Source: Knoellia koreensis (lineage in GTDB: Bacteria > Actinomycetota > Actinomycetes > Actinomycetales > Dermatophilaceae). Taken from it: DNA of 64,000 nucleotides. The stretch is taken from NCBI RefSeq assembly GCF_013041615.1, contig NZ_JABEPQ010000001.1, positions 1,480,976-1,544,975 of the forward strand, written 5' to 3'. Shown piece after piece: positions 685 through 63,616 of the stretch; positions within the stretch are counted from its first letter, which is position 1, and each line of letters begins with the position of its first letter. Both the position numbers and the translations under genes were made by a program. The notes beneath the pieces were generated by a model. That model was not told the origin of the DNA and ran no database searches. It saw nothing but the letters and a program-made list of their open reading frames with translations.

Positions 685-1326
685 CTAGCGCACCGACGCC
701 AAGAACCCGAGCGCTGCGGTGACCGCGTCGGCCGGGTTGCGCGGGAACGAGTGCGCCCCGTTCACCTCGGTCACGAGGTCGGGTGACGGCAGCTCGGCCC
801 GCACCTCCGCGGGCGTGCCGAACGGGTCGGTGCGCCCCTGGACGACATGCAGGGGTATGCCGTGTGCGAGCGGCGTGCGCAGCTCCTCGGCTCGCGACAC
901 CTCGGGCTTGCCGGGCGGGTGCAGCGGGAAGGACAGGCACAGCACGCCGTCGGCACCGGTGTCGTGGGCGGTGCGGCAGGCGACGCGTGCCCCGTTGCTC
1001 TTGCCGCCGGCCACCAGCGGCCCGGTGAGGCGGCGGCGCCCCGAGCGCAGCGCGGCCACGACGGGAAGCCAGGCCGGGTCCTGGGTCGGTGGCTGGGGCG
1101 GCATCTTGCGACCGGCGACGACCCAGGCCTGCTCGACGAGCGCCACCGCCCACCCGTCCTCGGTCGCGGCTGCCCGGATGGGCGCGAACTCCGAGGCGGT
1201 GAGCCGGCCGCCGGCTCCGTGGGTGAGGACGAGCAGCCCGGTCGAGTCGGCCGGCCGGCTCAGGCGGATGCGGGCCGGCCCCATCGGGGTGTCGACCTCG
1301 ATCACCGTGGCTTTGGAGGTGGTCAT
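685..1326 (-). CDS. Alpha/beta hydrolase (KANL3/TEX30-like, dienelactone-hydrolase fold)
   Basis: A 213-residue cytosolic alpha/beta hydrolase. The nucleophile elbow is GGKSNGA (Ser about residue 97), the acid is likely Asp in GRTDPFG and the base His in NGAHSF, giving a complete triad; the oxyanion strand is LVLTHGAGG. Such small proteins are usually annotated as dienelactone hydrolase-like or KANL3/TEX30 family and their substrates are unknown. The start ATG overlaps the stop of the upstream SRAP gene in an ATGA, so the two are translationally coupled and probably co-transcribed. The function beyond a hydrolase is not predictable. Confidence 0.8.
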   Translation of the reverse strand: MTTSKATVIEVDTPMGPARIRLSRPADSTGLLVLTHGAGGRLTASEFAPIRAAATEDGWAVALVEQAWVVAGRKMPPQPPTQDPAWLPVVAALRSGRRRLTGPLVAGGKSNGARVACRTAHDTGADGVLCLSFPLHPPGKPEVSRAEELRTPLAHGIPLHVVQGRTDPFGTPAEVRAELPSPDLVTEVNGAHSFPRNPADAVTAALGFLASVR

Positions 1327-2216
1327 TTCGAGTTTGGCCCGTCGGTGCTGGGGGCGCCCGCTCCCCCGCCGATGATCTCGCCGGTCGTGGGGTCGACGAC
1401 GCCGTCGAGCTCGTCGATGCCGGCGGGCTCGACCAGGCTCGGGCCGTTGCTGCGGTTGGAGGAGACGGCAGCTCCCACGGGGTAGGCGTCGAAACGGCCG
1501 GGCCGGCTGAAGGCGAGCAGCCGTGCCACCTCGTCGCGGTCGGTCATGGTGGGGTCGAGCCAGGTCGCCCAGTCCTCCCGCTCCAGGACCAGTGGTTGCC
1601 GGTCGTGGATCCGGTCGAGGCCTGGTTCGGCGTCGGTGGTGATGATGGTGAAGGTCGTGAGCCAGGCGTCCGGGTCGTCCTTGTCCTCGATGTCGCGGTC
1701 GCGCCAGAACTCGTAGAGCCCGGCGAAGGCAACGGGCTCCCCGTCGGCGCGGTGCATGAAGAACGGCTGCTTGCGCGGCTTGCCCTTGGCGTCGGTGGCC
1801 ACCGGCGACTTCTGCCACTCGTACCAGCCCTGCGCCGGGACGATGCACCGCCGCGACAGAGCCGCCTTGGTGAAGGACGGCTTCTCGAGCACCGAGTCCG
1901 CGCGGGCGTTGATCATCCGCATGCCCATCTTCACGTCCTTGGCCCAGCTCGGCACGAGGCCCCACGTCAGCAACCGCAGCTGGCGCACGGGAGCCGGCTC
2001 ACCGGCATACCCCTCCTCGCGCTGCTCCCGGGGCACCCGGGTGAGGACGACGGGGGCCTGCTTGCTGGGGGCCATGTTCCAGTCGGGCTGGCCCGGGGGC
2101 GGCGACTGGGGGTTCTTGAGGATGCTGCGCACCGGCTCGACCGACCGGTCGTCCTCGACCTCGAACTCCTCGACCAGCTCATCGGGGTTCGCGGTTGCCG
2201 CATATCTCCCGCACAT
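1323..2216 (-). CDS. SRAP domain protein (YedK/HMCES, abasic-site DNA-protein crosslinker)
   Basis: A 297-residue SOS-response-associated peptidase family protein. SRAP proteins shield abasic sites in single-stranded DNA by forming a thiazolidine link through Cys2, then self-reverse. The start is fixed by biology: the protein must begin MCGRYA so that Cys2 becomes the N-terminus after Met removal, so ATG at 2216 is used rather than in-frame codons upstream. Other family signatures are NARADSVLEKPSF, QGWYEWQ (catalytic Glu) and the HDRQPLVL block (His). It is longer than E. coli YedK (about 222 residues), mainly through an internal insertion around residues 30-75 and a C-terminal tail. A SRAP gene next to aroA and rsgA is typical of actinobacteria. 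Confidence 0.92.
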   Translation of the reverse strand: MCGRYAATANPDELVEEFEVEDDRSVEPVRSILKNPQSPPPGQPDWNMAPSKQAPVVLTRVPREQREEGYAGEPAPVRQLRLLTWGLVPSWAKDVKMGMRMINARADSVLEKPSFTKAALSRRCIVPAQGWYEWQKSPVATDAKGKPRKQPFFMHRADGEPVAFAGLYEFWRDRDIEDKDDPDAWLTTFTIITTDAEPGLDRIHDRQPLVLEREDWATWLDPTMTDRDEVARLLAFSRPGRFDAYPVGAAVSSNRSNGPSLVEPAGIDELDGVVDPTTGEIIGGGAGAPSTDGPNSK

Positions 2217-2276
2217 GGTGGACAGGGTACGCAGCGCCACCGACCCGCCCATACGGTAGGAAGGAGCCGAGGCCTT

Positions 2277-2318
2277 TTCCGACTTCAGGTTTCCGACTTC
2301 AGCATTGCGACTTCACCA
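2277..2318 (+). repeat. Three tandem 14-bp repeats upstream of doxX
   Basis: Three directly adjacent 14-bp units at 2277-2290, 2291-2304 and 2305-2318 share the core TTCCGACTTCA (third copy TTGCGACTTCA), with only the last bases differing. They end 13 bases before the doxX start codon and lie between the divergent SRAP and doxX genes, so they may be an operator or leader element. The role is inference; the repeat itself is direct observation. Confidence 0.7.
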
Positions 2319-2331
2319 CCGAGGAGTGGAC

Positions 2332-2871
2332 ATGACGCTGGTCCGACGAGTTGCCCGCCCGATGCTCGCCGCCCTGTTCGTGATCCAGGGCTACCAGCAG
2401 CTGCGCCAGCCGGGGGTGATGAAGCCCAAGGTCGAGCCGTTCGCGCAGAAGCTGGCGCCGCTCGGTGTGCCGAACGACCCGGAGCTGCTCGTGCGCGCCA
2501 ACGGCGCCACCATGATGGGTGCGGGCGCGATGCTCGCGACTGGCAACTTCCCGCGGATCGCGTCGCTCGTGCTGGCGGGCTCGATGGTCCCGACCACCTA
2601 TGTCGGCCACGCGTTCTGGGAGGAGAAGGACCCGACCGCGCGGCGCATGCAGCGCATCCAGTTCCTCAAGAACATCAGCCTGATCGGCGGACTACTCCTC
2701 GCCTCTGTCGACACCGAGGGCAAGCCCGGCCTGGCCTACCGCGTCGGCATGGCGGAGGACTCCGCCCGCCGGACCGCCAAGCGCGCCAAGCGTGAGGCCA
2801 AGATCGCCACGAAGGCCGCCCGGCGCGAGGCCAAGCTCGCCGCCACCCAGGCGCACGATGCCCTCACCTGA
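2332..2871 (+). CDS. DoxX family membrane protein
   Basis: A 179-residue integral membrane protein with about four hydrophobic segments (near residues 8-25, 55-72, 78-95 and 115-130), matching the DoxX family. DoxX relatives take part in membrane redox or detoxification processes, and the mycobacterial DoxX partners with superoxide dismutase and a thiol transferase. The C-terminal 40 residues are a highly basic Lys/Arg/Ala cytosolic tail (repeats of KRAKREAK type). ATG at 2332 was chosen for its GAGGAG ribosome binding site at 2321-2326. Its end overlaps aroA by 14 bases, so aroA is probably co-transcribed. Confidence 0.85.
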
Positions 2872-6409: not shown

Positions 6410-7445
6410 GGAGGACCTCCTCGGCGAAGTGGCACGCGGACTCGCGGCCGGGGGCGACGGTCAGCAGCTCGGGACGCTCCTCACGGCAGATGTCCTGGGC
6501 GTAGCGGCAGCGCGGGTTGAACGCGCAGCCGGCCGGGATCCGCATGAGGTTCGGCGGGAGGCCGCCGATCGCCGCGAGCTGCTGGCCCTTCTGGTCCAGC
6601 CGCGGGATCGACTCGAGCAGGCCCTTGGTGTACGGGTGGGCCGGCTGCCGGTAGAGGTCGAAGACGTCGGCGCGCTCGACGATCCGGCCGGCATACATGA
6701 CCGCGATCTTGTCGGCGACGTCGGCGACCACACCGAGGTCGTGCGTGATGAGGATGAGGCCCATCTGGCGCTCCTCCTGCAGCTCCTGCAGGAGGGACAT
6801 GATCTGCGCCTGGACGGTCACGTCCAGGGCGGTTGTCGGCTCGTCGGCGATGAGCACCGCCGGGTCGAGCGCGATGGCCATCGCGATCATGATGCGCTGA
6901 CGCATACCACCGGAGAACTGGTGCGGGTAGGCCTTCACCCGCTCCTTGGCCGCCGGGATCTGCACCCGCTGCATGAGCTTGACCGCCCGCTCCAGGGAGT
7001 CGGACTTGTTCATGCCGCGGTGCTTGCGGAACATCTCCGCGATCTGCCACCCGACCGGGAAGACCGGGTTGAGCGAGGAGAGCGCGTCCTGGAAGACCAT
7101 CGAGATCTCCGGACCGCGGGTCTTGCGCCGCTGCTCCTCGGGCATCGTCAGCAGGTCCTGGCCGCAGTAGCGGATCTGACCGCCGGGGATGACCGCCGGG
7201 GGCATGTCCAGGATGCCCATGATCGCCTGTGCGGTCACGGACTTGCCCGACCCCGACTCACCGAGGATGGCGAGCGTCTCGCCCTCGTGCAGGTCGAAGT
7301 TGACGCCGTTGATGGCCTTGGCCACACCGTCCTCGGTGTGGAACTCGACGCGGAGGTCCTCCACCTCGAGCAGCAGGCCGTCGACCGGCTTGTACTGCGA
7401 GGTCGCCGGGGTCTCCGACTTCCTCGTCTGCGTGTCTGTCGTCAT
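6402..7445 (-). CDS. dppD: Dipeptide/oligopeptide ABC importer, ATP-binding protein DppD/OppD
   Basis: Second ATPase subunit of the importer (347 residues), forming a heterodimer with DppF. Visible motifs: Walker A GESGSGKSVT (about 58-67), Q-loop VFQDALSSLNP, signature FSGGMRQR, Walker B VLIADEPTTALD and the ITHDLGVVA H-loop. The C-terminal domain ends with the Cys set CAFNPRCRYAQDIC...C typical of the family. DppD-type (FSGGMRQR) and DppF-type (FSGGQRQR) signatures are both present in the pair, as expected. It is 20 bases downstream of dppC. Confidence 0.93.
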   Translation of the reverse strand: MTTDTQTRKSETPATSQYKPVDGLLLEVEDLRVEFHTEDGVAKAINGVNFDLHEGETLAILGESGSGKSVTAQAIMGILDMPPAVIPGGQIRYCGQDLLTMPEEQRRKTRGPEISMVFQDALSSLNPVFPVGWQIAEMFRKHRGMNKSDSLERAVKLMQRVQIPAAKERVKAYPHQFSGGMRQRIMIAMAIALDPAVLIADEPTTALDVTVQAQIMSLLQELQEERQMGLILITHDLGVVADVADKIAVMYAGRIVERADVFDLYRQPAHPYTKGLLESIPRLDQKGQQLAAIGGLPPNLMRIPAGCAFNPRCRYAQDICREERPELLTVAPGRESACHFAEEVLHG

Positions 7446-7465
7446 GTGTGTGTCGTCTTTCCCGC

Positions 7466-8407
7466 TCAGCGCGACTTCGGGTCGAAGGCGTCACGGATGG
7501 CGTCACCAAGCATGATGAACGCCAGGACCGCCAGGCTGAGGAAGAGGCTGGGGAACAGGAGCATGTGCGGCGTGGTGCGGATGCCGACCAGTGCGTCGGA
7601 GATCGCGACACCCCACGAGACCGCGGGCGGCGTGAGGCCGATACCGAGGAAGCTCAGCGTCGCCTCCACCGCGATGTAGACACCGAGGTTGATCGTGGAC
7701 ACCACGATGACCGGGGCCATCGCGTTGGGCAGGACGTGCGACCGGATGATCCGCCACGGGCTCGCACCGAGGGCACGGGCCGCCTGCACGTAGTCGTTCG
7801 GCTTGACCTGAAGCACGCTGGACCGCATCAGTCGGGCGATGCCCGGCCAGCCGAAGATGGCGAGCACGACCACGACCTTGCCGACCACCACGAGGTACGG
7901 GGTGTTCTGGTCGTTCGGCATCACCGACATGAACAGGATGCCGCCGAGCAGCAGCGGGATCGCGAAGAAGATGTCGGTGAGGCGGGAGACGATGGCGTCG
8001 ATCCAGCCGCCGTAGAAGCCGGCGATGATGCCCAGGGCCGTGCCGATGATCAGCGTCGACAGGGTCGCGAAGACACCGACGAGGATCGAGGCACGGGCAC
8101 CGTGGATGGTGCGGGCGTAGATGTCGTAGCCCTGGATGTCGCGGCCGAACCATGGGCCGTCCAGGCTCGGACGCTCGCGCGCCTGCTGGAGGATGGCCTC
8201 GTTGGGATCGGTGCTGGTGAACAGCTGCGGCACGACCGCCATCAGCACGAACAGTGCGATGAGGATGACCGAGACCCAGAAGATCGGGTTCTTCTTCAGC
8301 TGCCGCCAGGCGTCCGACGCCAGCGAACGGGGCTTGTCCTGCTGGACGTCGCCCCCGGGAGCGGCACCGGTCTCCGCGGAGACTGCAATCGTCGATGCCT
8401 CAGTCAT
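7466..8407 (-). CDS. dppC: Dipeptide/oligopeptide ABC importer, permease DppC
   Basis: Inner permease subunit of 313 residues. It has a cytosolic N-terminal tail (1-35), a first membrane helix (about 40-60), a short periplasmic-side loop, then five more helices. The EAA-type coupling loop that docks on the ATPases is AARALGASPWRIIRSHVLP (about 215-235). The start ATG at 8407 overlaps the dppB stop by 8 bases. Pairs with DppB to form the translocation channel. Confidence 0.92.
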   Translation of the reverse strand: MTEASTIAVSAETGAAPGGDVQQDKPRSLASDAWRQLKKNPIFWVSVILIALFVLMAVVPQLFTSTDPNEAILQQARERPSLDGPWFGRDIQGYDIYARTIHGARASILVGVFATLSTLIIGTALGIIAGFYGGWIDAIVSRLTDIFFAIPLLLGGILFMSVMPNDQNTPYLVVVGKVVVVLAIFGWPGIARLMRSSVLQVKPNDYVQAARALGASPWRIIRSHVLPNAMAPVIVVSTINLGVYIAVEATLSFLGIGLTPPAVSWGVAISDALVGIRTTPHMLLFPSLFLSLAVLAFIMLGDAIRDAFDPKSR

Positions 8408-9332
8408 GGCTGATCCTCGGGTCGAGCACGCCGTACAACAGGTCGACGAGCAGGTTGACAAGGAGGAAGACGAGCACCAGGACGGTGACCGTGCCCACGA
8501 CGGACACGCCGTCGTGGTTGCGGATGCCGGTGAAGAGGAACCCACCGACACCCGGAATGTTGAAGATGCGCTCGGTCACGATGGCGCCACCGAGCAGGCC
8601 ACCGAAGTCGGCACCGATGAAGGTGACGACCGGGATCAACGAGTTGCGCAGCGCGTGCACACCGATCGCGCGGGACCGGGTCAGGCCCTTGGCGATCGCG
8701 GTGCGCAGGTAGTCGGCGCGCAGGTTCTCCACGAGGTTGGTGCGCGTCAGGCGCGCGACGTAGGCGATGGAGGCGCTGCCGAGCACGAAGGCCGGGAGGA
8801 TGAGCGACTGGAGTGGCCGGGCCGAGTCGTACGTCACCGGGAAGATCTGTCCGCCCATCTTGACGCCCAGGTAGTACTGGAGCACCGAGCCGATGACGAA
8901 CACCGGGATCGAGATGACGACGAGGGTGCTGACCAGCACCAGGTTGTCGATGAACTTGCCCTTGCGTACGCCCGCCAGCACACCGGCGATGATGCCGATG
9001 ACCGCCTCGAAGGCGATGGCCATCAGTGCGAGCTTGGCCGTGATCGGGTACCGCTGCTCCAGCTCGAAGCCGACGGACTGGTTGCGGAAGTTGGTCCCGA
9101 GGTCACCCTGGACGACGTTGCCGAGGTACTTCGCGTACTGCAGCGGGAACGGGTCGTCGAGGTTGTGCTCCTCGCGGAACTGGGCGACGAAGGCCGGCGA
9201 ACAGCCTCGGTCACCACACATGCCGGCGGTGGGGTCGCCCGGCATCGAGAACACCATGTAGAAGATGATGAACGTGGCGCCGATGAGCACCGGGATCATC
9301 TGTAGCAGGCGTCGAATGACGTACTTGTACAC
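8400..9332 (-). CDS. dppB: Dipeptide/oligopeptide ABC importer, permease DppB
   Basis: Permease subunit of 310 residues starting MYKYVIRRLLQMIPVL, a typical DppB/OppB N-terminal helix. The EAA-type loop is RTAIAKGLTRSRAIGVHALRN (about residues 215-235) and six membrane segments are visible. The external loop after helix 1 has two Cys (MCGDRGCSP, about residues 38-45). The start is GTG at 9332, fixed by AGGAGGTGA just upstream on the minus strand. It lies 253 bases downstream of dppA, a gap with two strong hairpins and a palindrome, so dppB-F may be expressed at a lower level than dppA. Confidence 0.92.
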   Translation of the reverse strand: MYKYVIRRLLQMIPVLIGATFIIFYMVFSMPGDPTAGMCGDRGCSPAFVAQFREEHNLDDPFPLQYAKYLGNVVQGDLGTNFRNQSVGFELEQRYPITAKLALMAIAFEAVIGIIAGVLAGVRKGKFIDNLVLVSTLVVISIPVFVIGSVLQYYLGVKMGGQIFPVTYDSARPLQSLILPAFVLGSASIAYVARLTRTNLVENLRADYLRTAIAKGLTRSRAIGVHALRNSLIPVVTFIGADFGGLLGGAIVTERIFNIPGVGGFLFTGIRNHDGVSVVGTVTVLVLVFLLVNLLVDLLYGVLDPRISHD

Positions 9333-9439
9333 GTCACCTCCTAGTCGCTGGACGCCTCGATCCGGGTTGCTTCCCGAGGCGTCGTTGGTCGGGGCCCGGC
9401 AGCCACGGATGGCGTCCGCAGTCCTCGACCCAAGATAGT

Positions 9440-9454
9440 CGTATGGACCATACG
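9440..9454. promoter_or_regulatory. 15-bp palindrome upstream of dppB (operator candidate)
   Basis: CGTATGG-A-CCATACG is a perfect 7-1-7 inverted repeat, 108 bases upstream of the dppB start and downstream of the dppA hairpins. A perfect odd-centred palindrome of this size is the usual form of a GntR- or TetR-type operator. No regulator gene is adjacent, so its use is inference. Confidence 0.4.
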
Positions 9455-9494
9455 TGGGGCAGGTTCACGAGGTGAAACCGACCCCGGACAGGGC

Positions 9495-9530
9495 GTCGGC
9501 CTGCCGACCTTTCAAGGCCGGCAGGCCGAC
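9495..9530 (-). terminator. Second hairpin between dppA and dppB
   Basis: Arms GTCGGCCTGCCG (9495-9506) and CGGCAGGCCGAC (9519-9530) are perfect complements, and the loop itself contains CCTT/AAGG that can extend the stem. On the minus strand it follows the dppA terminal hairpin by about 17 bases. Likely partial terminator or mRNA-stabilising structure. Confidence 0.55.
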
Positions 9531-9546
9531 GACTCTATCTGGTGGC

Positions 9547-9578
9547 GGGGCCCCGGGAACGAGCGTGCCCGGGGCCCC
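9547..9578 (-). terminator. GC-rich hairpin directly after dppA
   Basis: Perfect 11-bp arms GGGGCCCCGGG (9547-9557) and CCCGGGGCCCC (9568-9578) with a 10-base loop begin 8 bases after the dppA stop codon on the minus strand. No U-run follows, as is common for actinobacterial terminators. With the next hairpin it probably sets a high dppA to dppBCDF ratio. Confidence 0.65.
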
Positions 9579-9585
9579 ACTCACG

Positions 9586-11241
9586 TCAGGACTTCAGAGC
9601 CAGGCTCGAGAAGTCGATCGTGCCGAACGCGGTGATCTTCACACCGGTGACCTTGTCGGACCAGCCGAAGGTCGCAGTGGAGTACCACATGGGGATGGAC
9701 GGCATGTCGTTCGCGAGGAGCGCCTCAGCCTGCTGGTACTTGGCGTTGGCGGCAGCCGCGTCGGACTCGGCAGCTGCCTCGTTGAGCAGCTTGTCGAACT
9801 CCGGGTTGGAGTAGTCACCGTCGTTGGAGGACGCGCCGGTCTTGTAGATCGGGGCGAGGAAGTTCTCGATCGACGGGTAGTCCATCTGCCAGCCGGTGCG
9901 GAACATGCCCTTCATCTTCTTGTCCGCGATCTGCGAACGGAAGGTGGCGAAGTCCACGACCGGGGTGGCGACACAGTCGACACCCAGGGCGCCCTTGATC
10001 GAGTTACAGGTCGCCTCGGTCCACGGCTTGTGGTCGGCGTCCGCGTTGTACGACAGGGTCATCTTGCCGCCCTTGAAGCCACCGGCCTCGTCGAGCTTGG
10101 CCTTGGCCTTGGCCTTGTCGTAGGTGCACCACTCGCCACACTGGTTGGCCTTGTAGCCGTCCACGACCGGGGAGACCCAGCCGGTGGCGGGCTGACGGGT
10201 GTTGTTGAAGATCTGCTTGATGATCGTCGCACGGTCGATGGCCATGGAGATCGCCTGGCGGATCTTCGGGTCAGCGTAGTTCGGGTCGGTCTTGACCGGC
10301 GCGAACGTGATCGTCTGGATGACACCGACGGCGCGCTGGGCGTTCCGGTCGGGCAGGTCCGTCTTGTACTTGTCGTCGATCATCGCCGAGGACGGGATCG
10401 AGTCGGTCACGTCGAGCTGGTTGGCGATGACGTCGTTGTAGGCGGCGCCGTCGTCCTGGTAGATCTTGAAGGTGATGGCGTCGAGCTTGCCACCGAACTT
10501 GCCCGAGTAGTCAGCGAACTTGCTGAGCTTGATCTCGGAGTTCTTGGCCCAGCTGTCGAACTTGAACGGGCCCGCACCGATCGGCTTCTCACCGAAGGCC
10601 TTCGGGTCGCTGAAGAACGAGTCCGGCAGCGGCGAGAACGCCGAGTAGCCGAGACGGACCGGCATGTTCGAGACCTTCTCGGAGGTCTTGATGGTGAAGG
10701 TGTAGTCGTCCTTCACGGCCAGACCGGTGAGCTTGTCTGCCTTGGGCTTGGCGGTGCACTTCTCGTCGGCGCACTGCATGTCGGCGAAGCCCTCGATCGG
10801 CTCCATGAAGTACCCGGAGGACTGGGCGTTCGGGCCGTATGCCGCGTAGTTCCAGGCGTCGACGAAGTTCTTCGCCTTGACCTCGGTGCCGTCGTGGAAC
10901 TTGTAACCCTTCTTGAGGGTGACGGTGAAGTTCTGGTTGTCCGAGGTCTCGATCTTGTCCGCGATGTCGTTCTCGGGCGCGGCGTTCTCGGGGTTGTAGT
11001 GGACGAGCTTGGCCGTGATGGCGTCGAGCACGTTTCCACCACAGGTCTCGGTGGTGTTGCTGGGGATGAGGGTGTTCTGGGGGTTGCACCCTCGGACCGT
11101 CACAGCGCCGCCGGTCTTGCCGCCGCCGCCACCACTGGCGTTGTTACCACTGCCGCTGTCGCCGCCGCCACAGGCTGCAGCGAGCAGCGCAGCGGCGGAG
11201 ATGCCAGCAACCATGGTCACCGTGCGAGTAATTCCTCGCAT
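9586..11241 (-). CDS. dppA: Dipeptide/oligopeptide ABC importer, substrate-binding lipoprotein DppA
   Basis: Extracellular solute-binding protein, family 5 (551 residues), which captures peptides and delivers them to DppBC. The N-terminus is a lipoprotein signal: MRGITR, hydrophobic stretch, then lipobox LLAAAC with Cys24 for lipid anchoring, followed by a Gly/Ser/Asn linker. Family features include KKGYKFHDGTEVKAKNFV (about residues 110-127), GAGPFKF and IDRATIIKQI. ATG at 11241 was chosen for the AGGAGG site (minus strand, about 10 bases upstream) and the immediate signal peptide. It is the first gene of the dppABCDF set and is separated from dppB by hairpins. Confidence 0.93.
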   Translation of the reverse strand: MRGITRTVTMVAGISAAALLAAACGGGDSGSGNNASGGGGGKTGGAVTVRGCNPQNTLIPSNTTETCGGNVLDAITAKLVHYNPENAAPENDIADKIETSDNQNFTVTLKKGYKFHDGTEVKAKNFVDAWNYAAYGPNAQSSGYFMEPIEGFADMQCADEKCTAKPKADKLTGLAVKDDYTFTIKTSEKVSNMPVRLGYSAFSPLPDSFFSDPKAFGEKPIGAGPFKFDSWAKNSEIKLSKFADYSGKFGGKLDAITFKIYQDDGAAYNDVIANQLDVTDSIPSSAMIDDKYKTDLPDRNAQRAVGVIQTITFAPVKTDPNYADPKIRQAISMAIDRATIIKQIFNNTRQPATGWVSPVVDGYKANQCGEWCTYDKAKAKAKLDEAGGFKGGKMTLSYNADADHKPWTEATCNSIKGALGVDCVATPVVDFATFRSQIADKKMKGMFRTGWQMDYPSIENFLAPIYKTGASSNDGDYSNPEFDKLLNEAAAESDAAAANAKYQQAEALLANDMPSIPMWYSTATFGWSDKVTGVKITAFGTIDFSSLALKS

Positions 11242-11633
11242 TGATGTCCTCCTACTTGGGGTTACCCGCCCGGATGGACGAGGTCTGGCCGGGCCGCCCA
11301 CCGGTTGGAGCGCAGCCCTACAACGCACAAGGCGTCGTCGTGTGGCACCCATGAAAGAGCAAGGAGTCGGTAAAGGCGACGATCTGGAGCAAGCCGAGAC
11401 AAAAACGTGATCGTCCCGCGTCCATGTCGAGAGCGGGGCGCCGCGGCGCCACCCTCGGGAACCTCCGTGAGGCGGCGTCCGTGCTGGTCAGGAGAGGGTG
11501 GGGGTATGCCGCACGGTCGGCTGGACGGCATACCTGCGGCTCCCGCGGGGGCGGGGCCGGCGAGGTGTCGCCGGCCGGGTCCGCCGACGTGGCGTTGCGC
11601 CTGAACCGGGCCGCAACCGGCTAGCGTGACGGC
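11242..11633. other. 392-bp divergent spacer between dppA and hisN
   Basis: No supported gene. The part near dppA (about 11250-11410) should hold the dpp promoter, but I cannot pick -35/-10 hexamers with confidence. The part near hisN holds an inverted pair of the window-wide GTATGCC motif (11503-11534). Confidence 0.6.
11503..11534. repeat. Inverted pair of the GTATGCC motif
   Basis: GGTATGCCG (11503-11511) faces CGGCATACC (11526-11534) across a 14-base loop, forming a perfect 9-bp stem. It is one of three such pairs in the window with nearly the same spacing (others at 34661-34689 and 36574-36604). It could act as a hairpin or as a paired protein site. Confidence 0.7.
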
Positions 11634-26296: not shown

Positions 26297-26399
26297 GACC
26301 CCATCGTGTCAACGAAACCCGAAGCGCGGGCGAAAGCCGCGGCCCCCTGACGTCGCGACTCGGCCTGCCAACGGCCGACGACCGGTCTAGCGTGAAGGC

Positions 26400-27180: not shown

Positions 27181-27185
27181 CTCGC

Positions 27186-31461: not shown

Positions 31462-34400
31462 TCAGGGCGTGCTCGTCGCGGTGCCGGTCGGGGTCGGGGT
31501 CGGCTTCACCGTCGCGGTGCCGCCCTTGGGCGAGGCCGCGACCGCGCGCTTGATGGCGTCGTCGAGCTTCTTCTGAGCTGCGCCGTATGCCGCGAAGTCG
31601 CCGTCACGCAGCGCCTTCTGCCCCTCGTCGTAGGCGGCCTGGATGTCGGTGAGCGCCTTGGCGAGCGCCGCCGGGTCCGTCGCCCCACTCGGGGGCGTCG
31701 TGGGCGTGGTGGGTGTCGTCGGCGGGGTCGTCCCGCCGTCACCGCCACCGCCAGTGCCCGAATCCCCTGCAGTGGCGCCGGAGTTGCCACCGAAGAGCCC
31801 GTCGAGCGCCCCGTCGAGGGTGTCCGACCAGGCGAGCTTGTCACCGAACGCGACCACGGTCGCCCGCAACAGCGGGAACGCCGAAGTCCCTTGTGCTGCA
31901 ACGTAGATCGGCTGCACGTAGAGCAGACCGCCACCGACCGGAAGGGTCAGCAGGTTGCCAAGGGTCACGTTGGATCCCTGCTGCCGGGCGTTGTTGAGGA
32001 ACTGGCTCAAGGTCAGGCTGAACGCCGGCGAGGTCTGGTTGGAGGAGTTGATGTCGTTCTGCACCTGCCCGGGGCCACGCACCTGGGTGTCCTTGGGCAG
32101 GGCGAGCAGACGCATGGTGCCGTAGTCGGCGTCGGGCTTGCCGGCCGTCTTGCCCGCGTCGGCGTCGACGGCGAGGAACCCGGTCAGCACCTGCCGGTCA
32201 CCACGCGGCTTGAACGTCGTCGTCAGCGAGAACTTGGCGCTCTCCTGCTCCGGCAGCTTGAGGGTCAGGTAGTAGGGCGGTTGGTCCACGGGGTTGTCCG
32301 CGGACGGGTCCTCCGGCACCTCCCAGAAGTCCTGGCCGCCGTAGAAGGAGTCCGCGTCGGTCACGTGGAACCGGGTGAGCAGCTGGCGCTGCACCTTGAA
32401 CAGGTCCTCGGGGTAGCGCAGGTGCGACATGAGGTCGGCGTCGATCTCGCTCATCGGGCGGACGGTGCCGTCGAAGGCCTTGTTCCAGGCCTTGAGCAGC
32501 GGGTCGTTCGCGTCCCAGGCGTAGAGCTTGACGGTGCCGTCGTAGGCGTCGACCGTCGCCTTGACCGAGTTGCGGATGTAGTTGACCTTGCCGCTGCCGA
32601 TGGCGCGCACGGCGCTCGACCGGGCCGTCACCGAGTCGGACGTGGCGTTGTCGATCTCGGTCAGGCTCGAGTACGGGTAGTCGGCCGTCGTCGTGTAGCC
32701 GTCGACGATCCACTGCACGCGTCCGTCGACGACCGCCGGGTAGGGGTTGCCGTCGGTCGTGAGCCACGGGGCCACCCGCTCGACGCGCTCGAGCGGCTGG
32801 CGGTGGTCGAGGATCTTGCTGTCCCCGTTGACTGCGTTGGAGAGCAGGAAGTTCAGCTCGCGGTACTTCAGCGCGTAGGCCACCTTGCGCGGGAACGAGC
32901 CCACGTCGACACCGCCGCTGCCGGCATAGGTGTTGTTCTCCTGGCCACCCTCGCTCGGGTAGTCGAACTCCCGCGGCGCCGCACCGGACGGGCCACCGAC
33001 GATGGAGTACTGCGGCGACTCCTCACCGAAGTAGATGCGTGGCTCGAACTTCGGCAGCTTGCCGGACTGGGGGATGTTCTGGGCGTAGAAGACCGGCTCA
33101 CCGTCGGCCGTGCGCTGGTTGCCGTATGCCGCGACCATGCCGAAGCCGTGCGTGTAGACGGTGTGGTCGTTCAGCCAGTTGCGCTGCTGCTCCGGCACAC
33201 CGGCAAGGTCGAGCTCGCGCACCGCGACCACGGTGTCGCGCGTCTGGCCGTCGACGGTGTAGCGGTCGACGTCGAGAGAGTCGGGGAAGGCGTAGTAGTT
33301 GCGCACCGACTGCAGCTGCTTGAACGTCGGCGACACGACGTTGGGGTCGACGAGGCGTATGCCCGGCACGGTCTCGGCGTCGTCGCGTAGCTGGCCGGGG
33401 CTCGCCTCCGTCGTCGCCGTGTAGGGCTGCACCTCCACCTTGTCGATGGCGTAGGCCTTGCGCGTGGCGTCGATGTTGCGCTGCAGGTAGGGCTGCTCGA
33501 GCGACTTCTCCGACGGCTTGACCTGGAAGCGCTGCACCAGTGCGGGGTAGATGCTGCCAACCACGACCGAGGTGACGACGAGCAGGCCGAGGCCGATGAC
33601 GGGCAGCCGCCACGACCGGGTCCAGATGGCCGCGATGAACAGCCCGGCGGTCATGATCGCGGCCACCGCGAGGATCACCTTGGTCGGGAGCACTGCGTTG
33701 GCCGCGGTGTAGTTGATTCCCGTCTCCACCGGTCCGGAGTTGGCGGACGTGGCCAGGGAGTAGCGGTCGAACCAGTAGGTCGCGGCGCGGACGAGGACGA
33801 GGGCCGCCGCGAGCACCGCGAGGTGGGTGCGCGCCGCACGCGTCGTCCGCTCGCCACGGTTCTGGATCTGCAGACCGCCGTAGACGTAGTGGGTGAACGC
33901 CGCGGCCACCAACGCCATGACGAGCGCCATCGTGAGGAAGCCCAGCACGAACCGGATCCACGGCAGCGTGAAGACGAAGAACGAGATGTCCATCTTGAAC
34001 TGCGGGTCCTTGGTGCCGAACGGAACTCCGTTGCGCCACAACAGGAATGTCTTCCACTGTCCAGCCGCGCCCGCCCCGGCGAGCAGGCCGAGGACGCCGG
34101 GGATCGCGACCATGGCGATCTTGCGCAGCGGCTCGATCGCCTCGCGGTACTGGTCGAGGTTCTGCTGCTGGGCCGTCACGGGCGCGTAGATCGGCCGGGT
34201 GCGCCACCCGATGACCAGGCTCGAGCCGACCAGCGCTGCGGTGACCACGAAACCGACGACGAACAGCAGCACCTTGGTCCACAGCTGCTTGGTGAAGACG
34301 TCGGTGTAGCCGACGGAGCCGAACCACAGGACCTCGGTCCACAGCGAGGCGAAGATCGTGACGAGGAAGCCCAGCACGATGAGGATCGCGATGGTCGGCG

Positions 34401-34660: not shown

Positions 34661-34689
34661 GTATGCCGGGTGGTGGGCACGCGGCATAC
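34661..34689. repeat. Inverted pair of the GTATGCC motif
   Basis: GTATGCCG (34661-34668) faces CGGCATAC (34682-34689) across 13 bases, in the 150-bp divergent spacer between the UPF0182 and PPA1309 genes and just before the start of the latter. Same geometry as the pairs at 11503-11534 and 36574-36604. Confidence 0.7.
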
Positions 34690-36373: not shown

Positions 36374-36825
36374 CAGGGCAGCCCCACCCACTCGTCGGTG
36401 CCGTCGGTGAACTCCTGGTGCTTCCAGATCGGCACGGTCGCCTTGAGCGTGTCGATGAGGTCGCGGCAGGCCTCGATCGCCTGCGCGCGGTGCGGCGCCG
36501 AGACGGCGGCCACCACGGCGAGGTCCCCGACCTTGAGCCGCCCGCTGCGGTGGACGGCGGCCACCTTGGCGACGGTATGCCGCGTGGCGACCTCACGGCA
36601 TACCCGCGCCAGCTCGTCCGCGGCGCTCGGGTGCGCGGAGTAGTCCAGGCCGGCCACCTCCTCGCCGTGGTCGTGGTCGCGCACGACACCCACGAAGAGG
36701 GACACCGCGCCACACCGCGGGTGCTGCACGGCCGCGAGCGCCTCGTCGACCGACAGGGGCGCCTCGCGGATATCGGCGAGCACGACCTCGGCGGGGTCGG
36801 TGAGCTGGGTCGAACGGTCCGACAT
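36373..36825 (-). CDS. moaE: Molybdopterin synthase catalytic subunit
   Basis: Large subunit of molybdopterin synthase (150 residues), which transfers sulfur from MoaD thiocarboxylate to precursor Z. Conserved blocks: AVSLFVGVVRDHDHGEEVAGLDYSAH (residues 40-65), KVAAVHRSGRLKVGD (about 89-103) and the C-terminal WKHQEFTDGTDEWVG with the catalytic Lys. No moaD or other molybdenum cofactor gene is adjacent; moeZ, which can activate MoaD-type proteins, is at 61573-62784. The gene contains an inverted pair of the GTATGCC motif (36574-36604). Confidence 0.92.
   Translation of the reverse strand: MSDRSTQLTDPAEVVLADIREAPLSVDEALAAVQHPRCGAVSLFVGVVRDHDHGEEVAGLDYSAHPSAADELARVCREVATRHTVAKVAAVHRSGRLKVGDLAVVAAVSAPHRAQAIEACRDLIDTLKATVPIWKHQEFTDGTDEWVGLP
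36574..36604. repeat. Inverted pair of the GTATGCC motif inside moaE
   Basis: GGTATGCCG (36574-36582) and CGGCATACC (36596-36604) form a perfect 9-bp inverted repeat with a 13-base loop, within coding sequence. Third pair with nearly identical spacing in this window. Confidence 0.7.
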
Positions 36826-57400: not shown

Positions 57401-57918
57401 CCGTCGTAGGCGGCGACCACCTCGGCGGCGTACTGCCACGCGGCGGCCTCGGACAGCAGCCGCGACTCCCCCTCGTACCCCAGCCGCAGCGCGTGCTCGC
57501 GCACCAGCCGGCCGGCATACGAGTGGTAGGTCGACACGGTCGGGGTGCCGCCGAGCACCTCGGCGCCGGTCTCGTCGTCGTGCGCGCGCGGCTCCCACAC
57601 GCCACGCGCCTGAAGTTGCCTCAGCCGCAACCCGATTCGTTCGGCGAGCTCGGTCGCGGCCTTGCGCGTGAACGTCAGACCCAGCACCTGGTCGGGGTCG
57701 ACGAACCCGTTCGCGACCAGCCACACGACCCGGCTCGTCATCGTCTCGGTCTTGCCCGACCCGGCGCCCGCGACGACGAGCAACGGGTCATCGGGCGACG
57801 CCTCGATGACCGCCGTCTGCTGGGCAGTCGGGCGGGGCAGCCCGAGCGCGTCGGCCAACGACGCAGCGGTATGCCGCGGGGCTGCCACCGCGCCCACCTC
57901 ACCGGTCGGCTCGCTCAC
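54460..57918 (-). CDS. adnB: AdnB-type helicase-nuclease subunit (UvrD/REP helicase with RecB-like nuclease)
   Basis: A 1152-residue motor-nuclease subunit of the actinobacterial double-strand-break resection complex AdnAB. Walker A VVAGAGSGKTETM (about 47-59), motif II LLDEFQDTSDAQ (about 300-311), motif III GDPHQSIYGWRGA and motif VI YVAFTRARRAML are intact, marking this as the main motor. The C-terminal RecB-like nuclease has RGRIDAVFPREGG, the catalytic DWKTGAKPTG (about 1080) and the QLAAYRVAY motif. The start GTG at 57918 overlaps the adnA stop as GTGA, so the two subunits are co-translated. Confidence 0.93.
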   Translation of the reverse strand: MSEPTGEVGAVAAPRHTAASLADALGLPRPTAQQTAVIEASPDDPLLVVAGAGSGKTETMTSRVVWLVANGFVDPDQVLGLTFTRKAATELAERIGLRLRQLQARGVWEPRAHDDETGAEVLGGTPTVSTYHSYAGRLVREHALRLGYEGESRLLSEAAAWQYAAEVVAAYDGPMDDVAGAEATVIGAVVDLAGELAEHLRTPADVTAYVDRVEAALAALPQGATKTVGLMAESKKALDNLRARAGVMPIVERYLAMKRERDAMDFADQMALAARLARGFDDIGAIERDRFRAVLLDEFQDTSDAQLQLLQALFVAPGEPVPVTAVGDPHQSIYGWRGASATTLSAFRHAFRRTEAPVTQVPLTTSWRNDARVLEVANLVAAPLRDRSSVPVEPLDPRPGAGPGVVEVARLETIRDEADVVANWLAAQGESGAKTRAVLCRKRSLFAPVIDALERHEIPYEVVGLGGLLLTPEVEDITALLHVVHDPTRGDQLMRLLTGPLCHLGAADLDGLMAWARHQQEVRLGHGRPEQEAADADAAEGGSPELGDGGDEAVVGRVRDQAPDAADTASIVEAVDDLPPAGWVSWDGRRIGAVALERLRDLQHTIRRMRGLTALPLADLVGEAERALGLDIEVLARPGYTPSAARAHLDAFADVAANFSVSADRPNLGGFLAWLKAALDEERGLDKGWTEPREDAVQVLTVHAAKGLEWDAVAVPGLVEATFPDLSSAVTTAKNGEWTTSVPKDRGWLGGLSGGGIPYALRGDSAGLPLLDWEGATDNKDFNTKVEDFYLRGGEHAMQEERRLAYVAFTRARRAMLLTAHVWGTAKSPRVTSRFLLDVAAGAGEVAGDPAVRRLQWVDLPDPDDPDITNPLEAEQVVVQWPADPLAERRASLSRAAAAVREAIDAYAAGAPPALAQAPEQGLLPVPGEGVSVLHEVDLLLAERRRLAERSELVVEMPRHLSASAVVALATDPERFALGLRRPMPEAPALAARRGTAFHAWIEQHYARAAMVDLLDLPGSADEEPADDDQLPAMREKFLASEWADRVPTEIEIAVETVLDGIAVRGRIDAVFPREGGGFTIVDWKTGAKPTGEVARIRALQLAAYRVAYARLRGLEVDEVDGAFYYAGSGETVWPDLPGEADLVELLGTVPD

Positions 57919-60900
57919 AGGACCCTCCCCTCGGGCTGCGCCGGGCACGCAGCCTTGACCGCGCAGAGCTTGCAGTGGTCGCCCACCTTGGCGAGGAACA
58001 CCGGTCGCGACATCTCGTCCGCCGTCGACGCGACCAACTGCTCGGCCCACGTCGGGTCGTCCGCCTCGGCCAACGGCGGCTGGGGCTGCACCTGGTGGTT
58101 CTTGCCCGCAGCCTTGCCGATCTGGAGCAGCGCGGCGCCCGTGGACCGCTTCTCCTCGCCGAAAGCACCCCGCTCCACCGCCAGCTGGTAGACCCCGAGC
58201 TGCGGGTGCAGCGGCAGGTCGTCGGACTTGGGCTTGCTGCTGCCCGTCTTGTAGTCGACCACGCGCAGACCGGACCCGTCGGTGGCGCGCTCGAGCCGGT
58301 CGACTCGCCCGCTCACGACGGCACGGCCGAGGACGACCTTCATCGCGACCTCGGCCCCGACCTTCTCCCAGCCCTTGGCCCGCGCCTCGTCGAAGTAGCC
58401 CGCGAGCCGGCCGACCATCTCGTGCGCCTCGGCGCGCTTGCGGTCCGAGACCCAGCCACGCGGCATACCGAGCCTCGCCCACCGGGCGTCGACCTCGGCA
58501 GCCAGCGTCTGGGCGTCGACGTCGCCCAGCTCGGCCGCGATGTCGTGCACGAGGGTGCCGATGTCGGCAGCGCCGACGCGCGGCCCGTCGCCACCGACCG
58601 TGCTGAACAGCCAACGCAGCCCGCACTGCCCGAACGACTCGACCTTGCTCGGGGAGACGCGCACGTCCCGGTCCTCGTCGCGCAGCGGCCGGTCGTCGGA
58701 GACCACGCGCATCGCCCACCACTGCTCGGGGTCGGCACCCGCGACGCCCGCGTCGGCCAGCCGGGCGAGCGCCGCGACGGCGGTGAGGCGGTCGTCCTTG
58801 GTGGGCCCGTCGACGAGCTGGCGGCGCAGCTCACCGACGAGCGTGGGCAGCGTCATGGTGCGGCCGACCTCGGTGAACCCGCGGTCGCCGTTCTCGGACC
58901 GTTCGATGGTGTCGGGGTCGACCACGTCGAGGTAGACCGACGGCTGCTCGTCGTCGCTGCGCACCGCGGTGACGACGACACGGTCCGTCGCGCGGGTCAG
59001 GGCGACGAGGAAGAGCCGGGTCTCGTCGTAGCGCACCGCGGCCTGCGCCGCCCGGAACCGCGAATCCCGCCCGGCGACAACGTCGACGAGCTGCTCCGAG
59101 CCGAGCAGCGACCCGCGCAGCCGCAGGTCCGGCCACACGCCCTCCTGCACCCCGGCGACGATGACGAGCTGCCACTCCTGCCCGGCCGCGGCCTGCGGCG
59201 TGGTGACGGCGACCGACTCCCCCGACGGCGAGCGCGCGACAAGGGTGTCGCCGGGGATGTCCTGGCTCTCGATGTGGCGCAGGAACTCCTCGGGCCCGAG
59301 CCCCGGCATCCGGTCGGTGAACTTGGCCGCGGCGTCGAACAGCCCCACCACGGCGTCGAGGTCGCGGTCGGCCCGCGCCCCGCCCTGCCCGCCGGCGAGC
59401 GCGGACGCGCGCCACTCCTGGGCGATGCGGGTCGCCGACCACATGGCCCACAGCACCGACTCGGCCGTGACTCCGGGTGCCCAGCGCTGCCCGGGCTGGT
59501 CACCCGGTCGGGCCGCCTCGAGGCCGGCCCGGATCACGGTGGTAAGTCGGCGGGCCGGGTTGGCCTCCATGCCGAGGTCCTGGAGGTCGCCGGGGTTGAG
59601 CAGCGCCTGCGCCAGCAGCTCGTCGCTGGTGCGGTCGCCGCCGGACTCGAGCTCTGCCCGACGCAGGGCGCGGCGCAGCCGCCGCAGGCCGACGGCGTCG
59701 GCACCCCCGAGCGGGGAGGCGAGGGCGTCGACCGCCACCTGCGGGGGCACCGCGTCGGTGGCTCCCTGCGCGAGGTCGAGCACCACCTGCAGCAGTGCGA
59801 GCAGCGGCCGCACCGCCACCTCGTCGCGCACCGGCAGGTCGGCGCTGGCACCGGTGACGGGCACACCTGCCGCACTCAGCACCCGGCGCAGGGTCGACGT
59901 GCGCCCCTGCCCGCGGACGATGACCGCCATCTGCGACCACGGCACGCCGTCGCGCAGGTGTGCCTCGCGCAGCTCGGCGGCGACGAGCGCCGCCTCCTGG
60001 CTCACCGCGCGCAGCAGCCGCACGTCGACCGTGCCACCGCTGCGTCCCGGCCGGCTCTGGCGCTGGGCGCCGCCGCCGAGAGCGGCGATCTTGGGAGCCA
60101 CGCGGGCGGCCGCCGCGTGGACGGCCTGCGGCAGCCGGTATGCCGTGGGCAGCACGAACGTGGGCCCCTCGCCCAGGGCTGTCCAGCCGTCGGCGAGGTA
60201 GCGCGGGTCGGCGCCGCGGAAGGTCTGGACGGCGCTGTCGGGGTCGCCGATCAGGACGACGTCGATGCCGGGGGCGACGACGGTCTCGAGCAGCCGCACC
60301 GCGGCCGCCGTGAGCTCCTGTGCGTCGTCGACCACCACGAGCCGCAGCGAGTCCCGCACCCGCTGCATCGCCTCGGGCGTCTCCTCGAGCAGGTCGGCAG
60401 CGGCACCCAGGATCCACGCCGGGTCGTAGGCGCCGGGGGCTGAGAGCGCGGTGACCTCGTCGTACTCCTCGAGCACGTCGGCGGCCGCCACCCAGGCGGG
60501 CCGGTCGTGCTCGGCGCCGAGCCGGCGCAGGTCGTCGGCCTCGAGCCCGTGCTCGACGGCGCGCATGAGCAGGTCGCGCAGCTCACCACGAAATCCCTTG
60601 GTGGGCAAGGCTTCTCGCACCTGCTCAGGCCACGGCGGGCTCGGTGTCTCACCGCTCGCGTGACCGGCGAGCAGCTCGCGCAGGATGACGTCCTGCTCGG
60701 GGCCGCTCAGCAGCCGCGGGGTGGGGTCACCCCGCAGGGCCGCGGCCTGGCGCAGGAGGCCGAACCCGAACGCCTGGTGGGTGCGCGCCAACGGCTCGGT
60801 GGAGGTGCGGTCCAGCCGGGCGGTGACCCGCTCGCGCAGCGCGCCGGCGGCCAGTCGCGAGGAGGTGAGGACGAGGCACTGGTCGGGCCGCAGGCCGTCC

Positions 60901-61067
60901 CGCTCGACCCGGTCGACGACGACCTCGACCGCGGTCGTGGTCTTGCCCGTGCCCGGCCCGCCCAGGACGCGCAGCACCGCCCCGCGGTGCTCCACCGCGG
61001 CGCGCTGGACCTCGTCGAGCGGCGGCGGCTGCACCACGAGACTCGGAGCACGACGCAGGACGACCAC
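57915..61067 (-). CDS. adnA: AdnA-type helicase-nuclease subunit
   Basis: A 1050-residue partner of AdnB. Walker A is LGGPGTGKTTTA (about 35-46); motif II reads VVVDDAQELT rather than DEFQD, as expected for the weaker motor of the pair. The C-terminal nuclease contains SGRVDRLERA, catalytic DYKTGSSKPK (about 960) and QLGVYQLAVE. Cys in SFGQCGLRWLF and CKLCAVKAACPA (the C-terminal end) are placed to hold the iron-sulfur cluster described in AddB/AdnA-type nucleases. GTG at 61067 starts it, with no strong ribosome binding site. It is the first gene of the adnAB unit, preceded by a repeat-rich spacer. Confidence 0.93.
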   Translation of the reverse strand: MVVLRRAPSLVVQPPPLDEVQRAAVEHRGAVLRVLGGPGTGKTTTAVEVVVDRVERDGLRPDQCLVLTSSRLAAGALRERVTARLDRTSTEPLARTHQAFGFGLLRQAAALRGDPTPRLLSGPEQDVILRELLAGHASGETPSPPWPEQVREALPTKGFRGELRDLLMRAVEHGLEADDLRRLGAEHDRPAWVAAADVLEEYDEVTALSAPGAYDPAWILGAAADLLEETPEAMQRVRDSLRLVVVDDAQELTAAAVRLLETVVAPGIDVVLIGDPDSAVQTFRGADPRYLADGWTALGEGPTFVLPTAYRLPQAVHAAAARVAPKIAALGGGAQRQSRPGRSGGTVDVRLLRAVSQEAALVAAELREAHLRDGVPWSQMAVIVRGQGRTSTLRRVLSAAGVPVTGASADLPVRDEVAVRPLLALLQVVLDLAQGATDAVPPQVAVDALASPLGGADAVGLRRLRRALRRAELESGGDRTSDELLAQALLNPGDLQDLGMEANPARRLTTVIRAGLEAARPGDQPGQRWAPGVTAESVLWAMWSATRIAQEWRASALAGGQGGARADRDLDAVVGLFDAAAKFTDRMPGLGPEEFLRHIESQDIPGDTLVARSPSGESVAVTTPQAAAGQEWQLVIVAGVQEGVWPDLRLRGSLLGSEQLVDVVAGRDSRFRAAQAAVRYDETRLFLVALTRATDRVVVTAVRSDDEQPSVYLDVVDPDTIERSENGDRGFTEVGRTMTLPTLVGELRRQLVDGPTKDDRLTAVAALARLADAGVAGADPEQWWAMRVVSDDRPLRDEDRDVRVSPSKVESFGQCGLRWLFSTVGGDGPRVGAADIGTLVHDIAAELGDVDAQTLAAEVDARWARLGMPRGWVSDRKRAEAHEMVGRLAGYFDEARAKGWEKVGAEVAMKVVLGRAVVSGRVDRLERATDGSGLRVVDYKTGSSKPKSDDLPLHPQLGVYQLAVERGAFGEEKRSTGAALLQIGKAAGKNHQVQPQPPLAEADDPTWAEQLVASTADEMSRPVFLAKVGDHCKLCAVKAACPAQPEGRVL

Positions 61068-62784: not shown

Positions 62785-62793
62785 GGACGTCAC

Positions 62794-62821
62794 GGTACCC
62801 GCGCGTATACCCGTGCGTACC
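62794..62821. promoter_or_regulatory. 28-bp imperfect palindrome between moeZ and tetR (operator candidate)
   Basis: GGTAC (62794-62798) and GTACC (62817-62821) flank a core centred on GTATAC (62805-62810); the whole element is symmetric about 62807.5 apart from a few inner positions. It sits in the 108-bp divergent spacer, where a TetR autoregulatory operator is expected, and would also overlap the moeZ control region. Confidence 0.5.
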
Positions 62822-62892
62822 ATGGCCCCGACACCGCCGTCCCGGCCCACCGGCCGACGCCACGACGTGACGGCTCGACCAGAGAGGCACCC

Positions 62893-63555
62893 ATGTCGCT
62901 CGCCGACCAGCGCACCGAGTCCGGATCCCGCCAGCCGGGCCAGCGCATGCCCCGCTCCGCACGCCGGGCCCAGCTGCTCGACGCCGCACAGGCCGCGTTC
63001 GTCGAGTCCGGTTACCACGCCGCCGCCATGGACGACATCGCCGACCGCGCGGGCGTTTCCAAACCCGTTCTCTACCAACATTTCCCGGGCAAGCTCGAGC
63101 TCTACCTCGCGCTGCTCGACAAGCACAGCGAAGCCCTCGAGGAGCTCGTGCGCGAGGCGCTGGCCGAGACGAGCGACAACAAGGAACGCGTCTACGCCAC
63201 CATCAACGCCTACTTCGACTTCGTGGCGCGCGACGGCGCGGCGTTCCGCCTCATCTTCGAGTCCGACCTCACCAACGAGTCGCTCGTGCGCAACCGGCTC
63301 GACGCGGTCGGCCTCGTCTGCGCGGAGATGGTCGCCGAGGTCATCGCCGAGGACACCGGGCTCACCGACGAGGACGCCTCGCTGCTCGGCATGTCCCTCA
63401 CCGGCATGGCGCAGGTCGCTGCCCGGCACTGGCTCGCCCAGGGCTCGGAGGTCCCCAAGGAGGAGGCGGCCCGGCTCGTGGGCGCGCTCGCGTGGCGGGG
63501 CCTCGGCTCGTTCCCCAAGGTGGGCGGGGAAGGAACCGACGCACCCGCTCGTTAG
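62893..63555 (+). CDS. TetR family transcriptional regulator
   Basis: A 220-residue TetR-type regulator. The helix-turn-helix is RRAQLLDAAQAAF...YHAAAMDDIADRAGVSKPVLYQHFPGK (residues 24-66), with the ligand-binding domain after it. In M. tuberculosis the equivalent gene lies between moeZ and the DUF3107 gene, as here. Ligand unknown. ATG at 62893 has GAGAGG upstream. It faces moeZ across a palindromic spacer. Confidence 0.93.
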   Translation: MSLADQRTESGSRQPGQRMPRSARRAQLLDAAQAAFVESGYHAAAMDDIADRAGVSKPVLYQHFPGKLELYLALLDKHSEALEELVREALAETSDNKERVYATINAYFDFVARDGAAFRLIFESDLTNESLVRNRLDAVGLVCAEMVAEVIAEDTGLTDEDASLLGMSLTGMAQVAARHWLAQGSEVPKEEAARLVGALAWRGLGSFPKVGGEGTDAPAR

Positions 63556-63616
63556 GTTGGTGCACTCACGCACGCGGTATGCCGCGTGCCCAGCTTCGAG
63601 AAGGAAGGCCACCGCT

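Follow-up and report, generated by a model that had tools for sequence, protein, structure and literature searches.

Copies of the word in the window

The window analyzed here is a 64-kb stretch of the Knoellia koreensis genome (NZ_JABEPQ010000001.1, positions 1,480,976 to 1,544,975) in which one eight-base word, GTATGCCG, recurs in genes and spacers; this word is the candidate DNA uptake sequence with which the present report deals. The window holds 62 copies, 30 on the plus strand and 32 on the minus strand, against 1.2 expected on both strands by an order-2 Markov model. The copies and their close pairs are as follows.

855..63584, both strands: span of the 62 copies
Plus strand, starts of GTATGCCG by word count: 855, 3430, 5277, 10837, 11504, 12972, 16778, 21288, 23020, 24622, 31126, 31585, 33124, 34661, 36575
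Plus strand, further starts of GTATGCCG by word count: 37683, 39941, 41005, 42391, 45677, 45906, 48252, 48402, 50225, 51898, 54604, 57869, 60138, 61719, 63577
Minus strand, first base of CGGCATAC by word count: 2003, 4648, 6689, 11526, 12445, 12512, 14733, 15634, 18264, 18758, 20931, 22372, 24278, 26032, 30531, 31439
Minus strand, first base of CGGCATAC by word count, continued: 34682, 36596, 39535, 41181, 42760, 46148, 46879, 49736, 50511, 52183, 53887, 55194, 57513, 58461, 61113, 61957
11504..11533: convergent pair 22 bp apart, an inverted repeat, in the spacer between called genes 9586-11352 (minus) and 11634-12428 (plus)
34661..34689: convergent pair 21 bp apart, in the 5' part of the UPF0182 reading frame 31462-35604 (minus), upstream of its Pfam match
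36575..36603: convergent pair 21 bp apart, within a called reading frame
33357..33363, plus strand: GTATGCC without a following G (GTATGCCC), excluded from the 8-mer count

The preliminary description of this DNA had counted GTATGCC 31 times and GGCATAC 32 times, which we reproduced exactly (the order-2 model expects 2.9 for both strands together), and those of its example positions that were compared are correct to within 1 base. The core is an 8-mer, as G comes after 62 of the 63 window 7-mers, with the sole exception at 33357. Of the extension GGTATGCCGYG that had been proposed, preferred flanks remain (of the 63, 38 have G at position -1, 48 have C or T directly after the core, and 45 have G at the base following that), but these bases are not fixed. 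The spacer copies have a longer consensus of about GGTATGCCGCGTGGTC.

Genome-wide counts and strand balance

The host genome (G000; 4.28 Mb in 15 contigs; Dermatophilaceae/Intrasporangiaceae, Actinomycetota) contains 1983 forward and 2003 reverse copies of GTATGCCG, 3,986 in all, and the word read backwards occurs 54 + 60 = 114 times. This reversed-word control is conservative where GCC stands before the word, because GCCGTATGCCG contains the reversed word. With the motif masked in training, Markov models expect 1.8-4.8 copies in the window plus 15 stretches of 20 kb from the main contig (364 kb in total), where 357 were observed; scaled by length, the genome count is about 70 to 190 times the masked expectation.

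The two strands are balanced genome-wide (1983:2003, binomial p 0.76), and all 15 extra 20-kb samples have copies on both, so the absence of polarity noted in the preliminary description extends well beyond the window. A Chi-like or KOPS-like polar signal for recombination or segregation would also be a short, frequent word, and the window encodes a UvrD/PD-(D/E)XK helicase-nuclease (57915-61067), the kind of protein that reads Chi. Since no strand bias is seen in the window, in any 20-kb sample or in the genome, we regard such a signal as extremely unlikely.

None of the 24 single-base variants of GTATGCCG approaches the excess of the core. Variants above expectation include GGATGCCG (64 observed, 32 expected), GTACGCCG (36 and 19) and GTTTGCCG (12 and 3), and some, such as GTCTGCCG (10 and 27), fall below it. 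An apparent depletion of near-matches under an unmasked model (232 vs 276) became a mild excess once the motif was masked (232 vs 170; order 3, 364 kb). These counts bear on the main alternative, that the word is a HIP1-like, methylation-linked motif: an orphan methyltransferase would mark GTATGCCG, a methylation-dependent mismatch-repair bias would make and keep it, and dialects would follow changes of enzyme. Cyanobacterial HIP1 is likewise a highly iterated, very frequent, family-wide GC-rich octamer, swapped in some lineages for alternate words that have methyltransferases to match, and repair has been proposed as a model for it (PMC4390886). However, repair bias should deplete near-matches, whereas their sum is mildly in excess, although GTCTGCCG is low.

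Genes, spacers and hairpins

Site anatomy was surveyed in 444 kb of own sequence, with genes taken from our own codon-score calls and not from a published annotation. Genes hold 322 copies, and spacers hold 93 where 49 are expected (p 2e-9). The coding copies comprise 158 in the frame xxG-TAT-GCC-G (Tyr-Ala), 96 in the antisense frame GCA-TAC (Ala-Tyr) and 68 in other frames; together with the spacer copies, this spread goes beyond the single amino-acid pair in a single frame that the preliminary description had named as a trivial source of enrichment. The word could be a by-product of codon or amino-acid use, or a dispersed repeat, and 254 of the 322 coding copies do fall in Tyr-Ala or Ala-Tyr frames. 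Yet 170 of 241 TAT codons stand in TAT-GCC (Tyr-Ala) though TAC, with 2,325 uses, is the usual Tyr codon, spacers are enriched, and only within the word are synonymous bases conserved (see below). The synonymous-site test and the spacer excess rule out an artefact of codons or composition, and a dispersed repeat was rejected because the flanks of the copies share no long repeat; we therefore give explanations of this class almost no credence.

The copies are spaced more evenly than chance (coefficient of variation 0.85, against a random mean of 0.97 and a first percentile of 0.87). Fifteen pairs lie less than 60 bp apart, 12 of them convergent, and 8 of these 12 stand at most 50 bp behind a stop codon. 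Some convergent pairs are perfect palindromes of the form GGTATGCCGCGTGGT-S-ACCACGCGGCATACC, and three predicted hairpins have folding energies of -27 to -36 kcal/mol. HIP1-like marking does not sit well with this anatomy. HIPs are palindromic and tied to methyltransferases, whereas GTATGCCG differs from its own reverse complement and has hairpin pairs; in addition, the spacer consensus extends about 8 bases past the core and is shared by the convergent pairs, features not expected of a short methylation site. We consider this explanation unlikely overall; if it were nevertheless correct, the word would add a non-palindromic example to the unexplained HIP class.

Maintenance at orthologous and synonymous sites

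Orthologous sites were compared in 11 congeneric genomes over 20 kb around comEC in each, giving 110 ordered pairs. The motif was intact at the aligned site of the other genome in 598 of 996 cases (60%), with 27 of the 996 gapped, against 1,242 of 8,548 control 8-mers at a local identity of 0.7 and 4,028 of 17,582 at 0.8 (15-23%). Codon alignments of comEC and leuS gave the same picture at synonymous positions: where Tyr was kept, TAT was kept in 114 of 160 cases inside the motif (71%) vs 6 of 76 outside (8%), and where Ala was kept, GCA was kept in 90 of 100 cases inside vs 154 of 1,088 outside (14%). The p-values of these comparisons are indicative only, because they draw on genomes related by descent and every pair enters from both sides. 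Synonymous positions are thus kept inside the word, from which it follows that the target of selection or biased replacement is the DNA word itself. HIP1-like marking would fit this maintenance equally well.

Distribution and dialects in the family

All 11 genomes of the host genus are enriched in GTATGCCG (625 to 3,986 copies), and among 25 other family genomes enrichment is patchy. In 22 genomes from other families of the order the count runs from 2 to 167, and in a sample of the class (n=296) none of the 290 genomes from outside the family has an excess of similar size, the top count being 386 in a 7.5-Mb genome with a control count of 176. The suspicion that the motif is a signature of this lineage is borne out by its abundance in much of the family, and the recommended comparison with related genera also brought out single-base dialects. 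In a tree of LeuS and ComEC from 40 genomes, GTATGCCG is found in both deep clades of the family, and genomes without it (G012, G016, G018, G019, G020, G023 and G024) stand at several places.

Dialects came to light when words were counted in relatives, first in pieces of 11 to 80 kb and then over the whole genome in 21 members of the family. G022 carries 3,135 copies of GAATGCCG (reversed 27) beside 1,025 of GTATGCCG, and G013 carries 1,557 copies of GTATGACG (reversed 151) beside 2,288 of GTATGCCG, followed for GTATGACG by G014 with 834 (88), G021 with 597 (116) and G028 with 344 (111). GGATGCCG reaches 3,816 copies in G026 (reversed 392) and 1,336 in G011 (reversed 310), which has just 29 copies of GTATGCCG; the other 19 genomes have a GGATGCCG background of 260 to 976 copies, which makes G011 only about a two-fold case. 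In G030, GTATGCGG occurs 20 times vs 1.1 expected, counted in 80 kb only. GTACGCC-type words are moderately enriched in G033 and G034, an ambiguous result that may reflect Tyr-Ala codons. As a separate observation, one stretch of a relative (L077, G005:C12:71001-91000) contains ACTGACCC 14 times vs 0.7 expected, in this stretch only, perhaps as a local repeat array.

Some sister genera in the LeuS and ComEC tree have different dialects, as in G025/G026 and G027/G011 (support 0.84 for the second pair). At the site L068:1964, GTATGCCG stands in G000, G027 and G032, GAATGCCG in G022 and GGATGCCG in G011; the spellings differ in the third position of what one frame, translated by eye, reads as a Gly codon. 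Congener G002 also has GGATGCCG at this site, so GGATGCCG in G011 may be the plain state. A leuS site reads GTATGCCG in G000 and G032 vs GTATGCGG in G030, a synonymous change, again translated by eye. Replacement in place is seen at these two sites only; for most copies aligned between genomes of different dialect, the sequences merely differ.

Foreign-looking DNA

Four small host contigs hold 3 copies in 96.8 kb vs about 90 expected; they were chosen after the counts of all small contigs were known (C4, a fifth, carries 6 copies; another three read N).

C2 (L229), 12.5 kb: Rieske ring-hydroxylating oxygenase, glutamine synthetase
C3 (L230), 9.6 kb: ParB-like protein
C14 (L239, L247), 37.6 kb: ParA-like protein, Mu-type transposase, P-type ATPase (metal-ATPase-like)
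C15 (L240, L248), 37.1 kb: endolysin/tail-like match only (PHROGs, six proteins)

These contigs are likely plasmids or islands; for C15 the only grounds are its size and its scarcity of the motif. The larger contigs C10 to C13, when sampled, gave 11 to 24 copies per 20 kb. Elements inserted in G003 and G017, in the roughly 27.6 kb seen of them, contain 3 copies vs about 22 expected at genome densities. In the 40 kb around a terminase match in G014 there are 17 copies vs about 36 at genome density, from which nothing is inferred as the prophage borders are undefined. Separately, the small contig C4 (L231, 6.5 kb, with an RHS-repeat protein) holds 6 copies of GTATGCCG and 3 of GTATGACG, a word with 28 copies in the whole host genome.

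Poverty of the word in such DNA is shared by several explanations. Newly arrived DNA would lack the word under HIP1-like marking too. A chromosome-wide binding site of an organizing, segregation or regulatory protein would likewise account for absence from small plasmid- or island-like contigs, and also for even spacing and conservation. On the other hand, no orientation or position bias is seen, copies come about once per kb and include hairpin pairs behind genes, and the respelling of thousands of copies would be unexpected for an essential cellular site. We judge a binding site of this kind improbable.

Candidate DNA-uptake machinery

ComEA and ComEC are encoded in all 41 loci examined, including that of the host, where they are adjacent. 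ComEC was discarded as a discriminator of motif carriers, being matched in 57 of 58 relatives, as was the Tad ATPase family TIGR03819, matched in 58 of 58 and over the cut-off in 49 of 58. In G004, a genome with 2,537 copies, ComEC lies in two frame pieces (L076, G004:C1:1507001-1527000), through sequencing error or recent loss. The type IVa pilus models PF11104 and PF07963 were unmatched in the host and 10 congeners, although very divergent pilins could escape them; among the 58 genomes the PilM model matches 13 and the N_methyl model 12, in the family only G015, G030 (weakly) and G035. The lack of a type IVa match in the host genus makes a ComP-type reader unlikely, and this candidate was set aside. 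The search for com and pil genes that the preliminary description had advised thus turned up ComEA, ComEC and four Tad-type loci in the host.

The third Tad locus (L216:5880-10495) reads tadA-tadB-tadC-small pilin-TadE-like-TadE-like-TadG-like. Transformation of Micrococcus luteus needs tad clusters of tadA-tadB-tadC-TadE/F-TadG together with ComEA/ComEC, and the gene order of the third locus is that of these clusters (PMC4322843). The N termini of its two TadE-like proteins resemble, by eye, those of M. luteus TadE and TadF printed in PMC6370729. Among 39 family genomes, the ATPase of this locus is missing in motif-free G016, G023, G024 and G229 and in 0 of 27 clear carriers (p 0.0013 without phylogenetic correction, with G016 and G024 being sisters in the tree); ambiguous G011, G029, G033 and G034 were set aside, and with them included p is 0.0009 or 0.006, depending on the group to which they are assigned. 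The gene is in pieces on two contigs in G031, and a single piece was found in G027. In three relatives it is split, with halves about 70, 79 and 11 kb apart in G003, G009 and G017, respectively.

G003:C1:2352818-2424625 (ends L254, L255): split third-locus ATPase
G009:C11:594898-674692: split third-locus ATPase
G017:C43:9239-21506 (L256): split third-locus ATPase

Both junctions read, in G003 and in G017, have a large serine integrase and fall at different points of the gene; the element inserted in G017 encodes a phage major head protein. Mobile elements are known within competence genes, as in Listeria comK. By analogy, the third Tad locus may be the competence pilus, for which the integrase insertions are a lead, not proof.

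Interpretation as a probable DNA uptake sequence

Taken together, GTATGCCG, in its fuller form about GGTATGCCGCGTGGTC, is probably a DNA uptake sequence of Dermatophilaceae/Intrasporangiaceae, a reading derived from sequence. The hallmarks of uptake sequences found are copy number, strand balance, inverted pairs behind genes, dialects and DNA-uptake genes in the host, and of the options that the preliminary description had listed, a DNA uptake sequence fits best. We infer that the word is read during uptake, and the reader is inferred as well: a DNA-binding subunit of the competence apparatus, likeliest a minor pilin of the Tad/Flp pilus or a neighbour protein, would favour DNA with the word, ComEA and ComEC would then import one strand, recombination of the DNA so taken up would spread and preserve the word, and each lineage would drift to its own dialect as a result of biased uptake and recombination. 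On balance, we favour the view that this is uptake of self-DNA in a monoderm phylum, of independent origin from that of Neisseriaceae and Pasteurellaceae, with a Tad/Flp-type or ComEA-side reader in place of a type IVa pilin and several single-base dialects in the family.

Several observations weigh against an uptake role. In the window, 0 of 3 convergent pairs stand directly behind a called gene. The genes comEA and comEC and a Tad ATPase occur in motif-free relatives too; the third-locus ATPase is kept in 4 of 8 motif-free genomes, and the three genomes with a split gene, G003, G009 and G017, still have 1,934, 836 and 4,724 copies. Two genomes with the motif, G015 and G035, give matches to type IVa pilin or PilM models. 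As a prophage marker, the terminase model PF03354 gave a weak test, matching 1 of 18 genomes. Finally, HIP1 is also replaced by alternate words (PMC4390886), so dialects alone do not single out uptake.

Set beside known uptake words, ATGCCG is common to GTATGCCG and the longer DNA uptake sequence (DUS) of Neisseriaceae, and the core of the Pasteurellaceae uptake signal sequence (USS) is unrelated to GTATGCCG. Like the host word, the DUS is short, non-palindromic and present in thousands of copies on both strands, with single-base dialects inside one family and two dialects in a single genome (PMC3630211), and it forms inverted pairs as terminator hairpins (PMC1852404), comparable to the predicted hairpins of the host pairs. 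It differs in phylum and cell envelope; the host genus has no type IVa pilus match and hence no ComP, and GTATGCCG and its dialects lack the CTG core common to eight DUS dialects (PMC3630211). Moreover, the uptake role of the host word is a prediction. Tested for membership in the Neisseriaceae DUS/ComP system, the host word does not belong to it. The USS is also a genome-wide word at about 1 per kb with terminator hairpin pairs (PMC1852404); it belongs to another phylum, and its receptor is unsettled as well (PMC12616744). Transformation of M. luteus by Flp/Tad pili shares ComEA/ComEC and the tadA-tadB-tadC-TadE/F-TadG arrangement with the host (PMC4322843); the host, however, is not known to be competent, and no uptake sequence is described for M. 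luteus in the main text of PMC4322843, from which the term is absent (0 occurrences).

In the abstracts of PMC7811141 and PMC1939737, Pasteurellaceae and Neisseriaceae are the only bacteria credited with uptake sequences, and searches of open-licence papers showed, among the matches listed, no earlier report of an uptake sequence in Actinobacteria or of this word as one. If the interpretation is correct, GTATGCCG would be a further independent case, in Actinomycetota, and a preference for own DNA would arise in monoderms as well, with a different pilus. Covariation with the family-wide dialects would then help to find the reader, and these environmental bacteria, which include polyphosphate accumulators of wastewater (PMC9123174), could become easier to transform once one short word is added to the DNA.

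Other features of the window

The longest word-free stretches of the window are 26033-30532 (4.5 kb), a region of a major facilitator superfamily-type transporter, and 6690-10837 (4.1 kb), an oligopeptide-transport-type region. The UPF0182 protein encoded in the window puts the host in Dermatophilaceae/Intrasporangiaceae, as the closest of 19 loci found are those of Tetrasphaera, at 65 and 60% identity.

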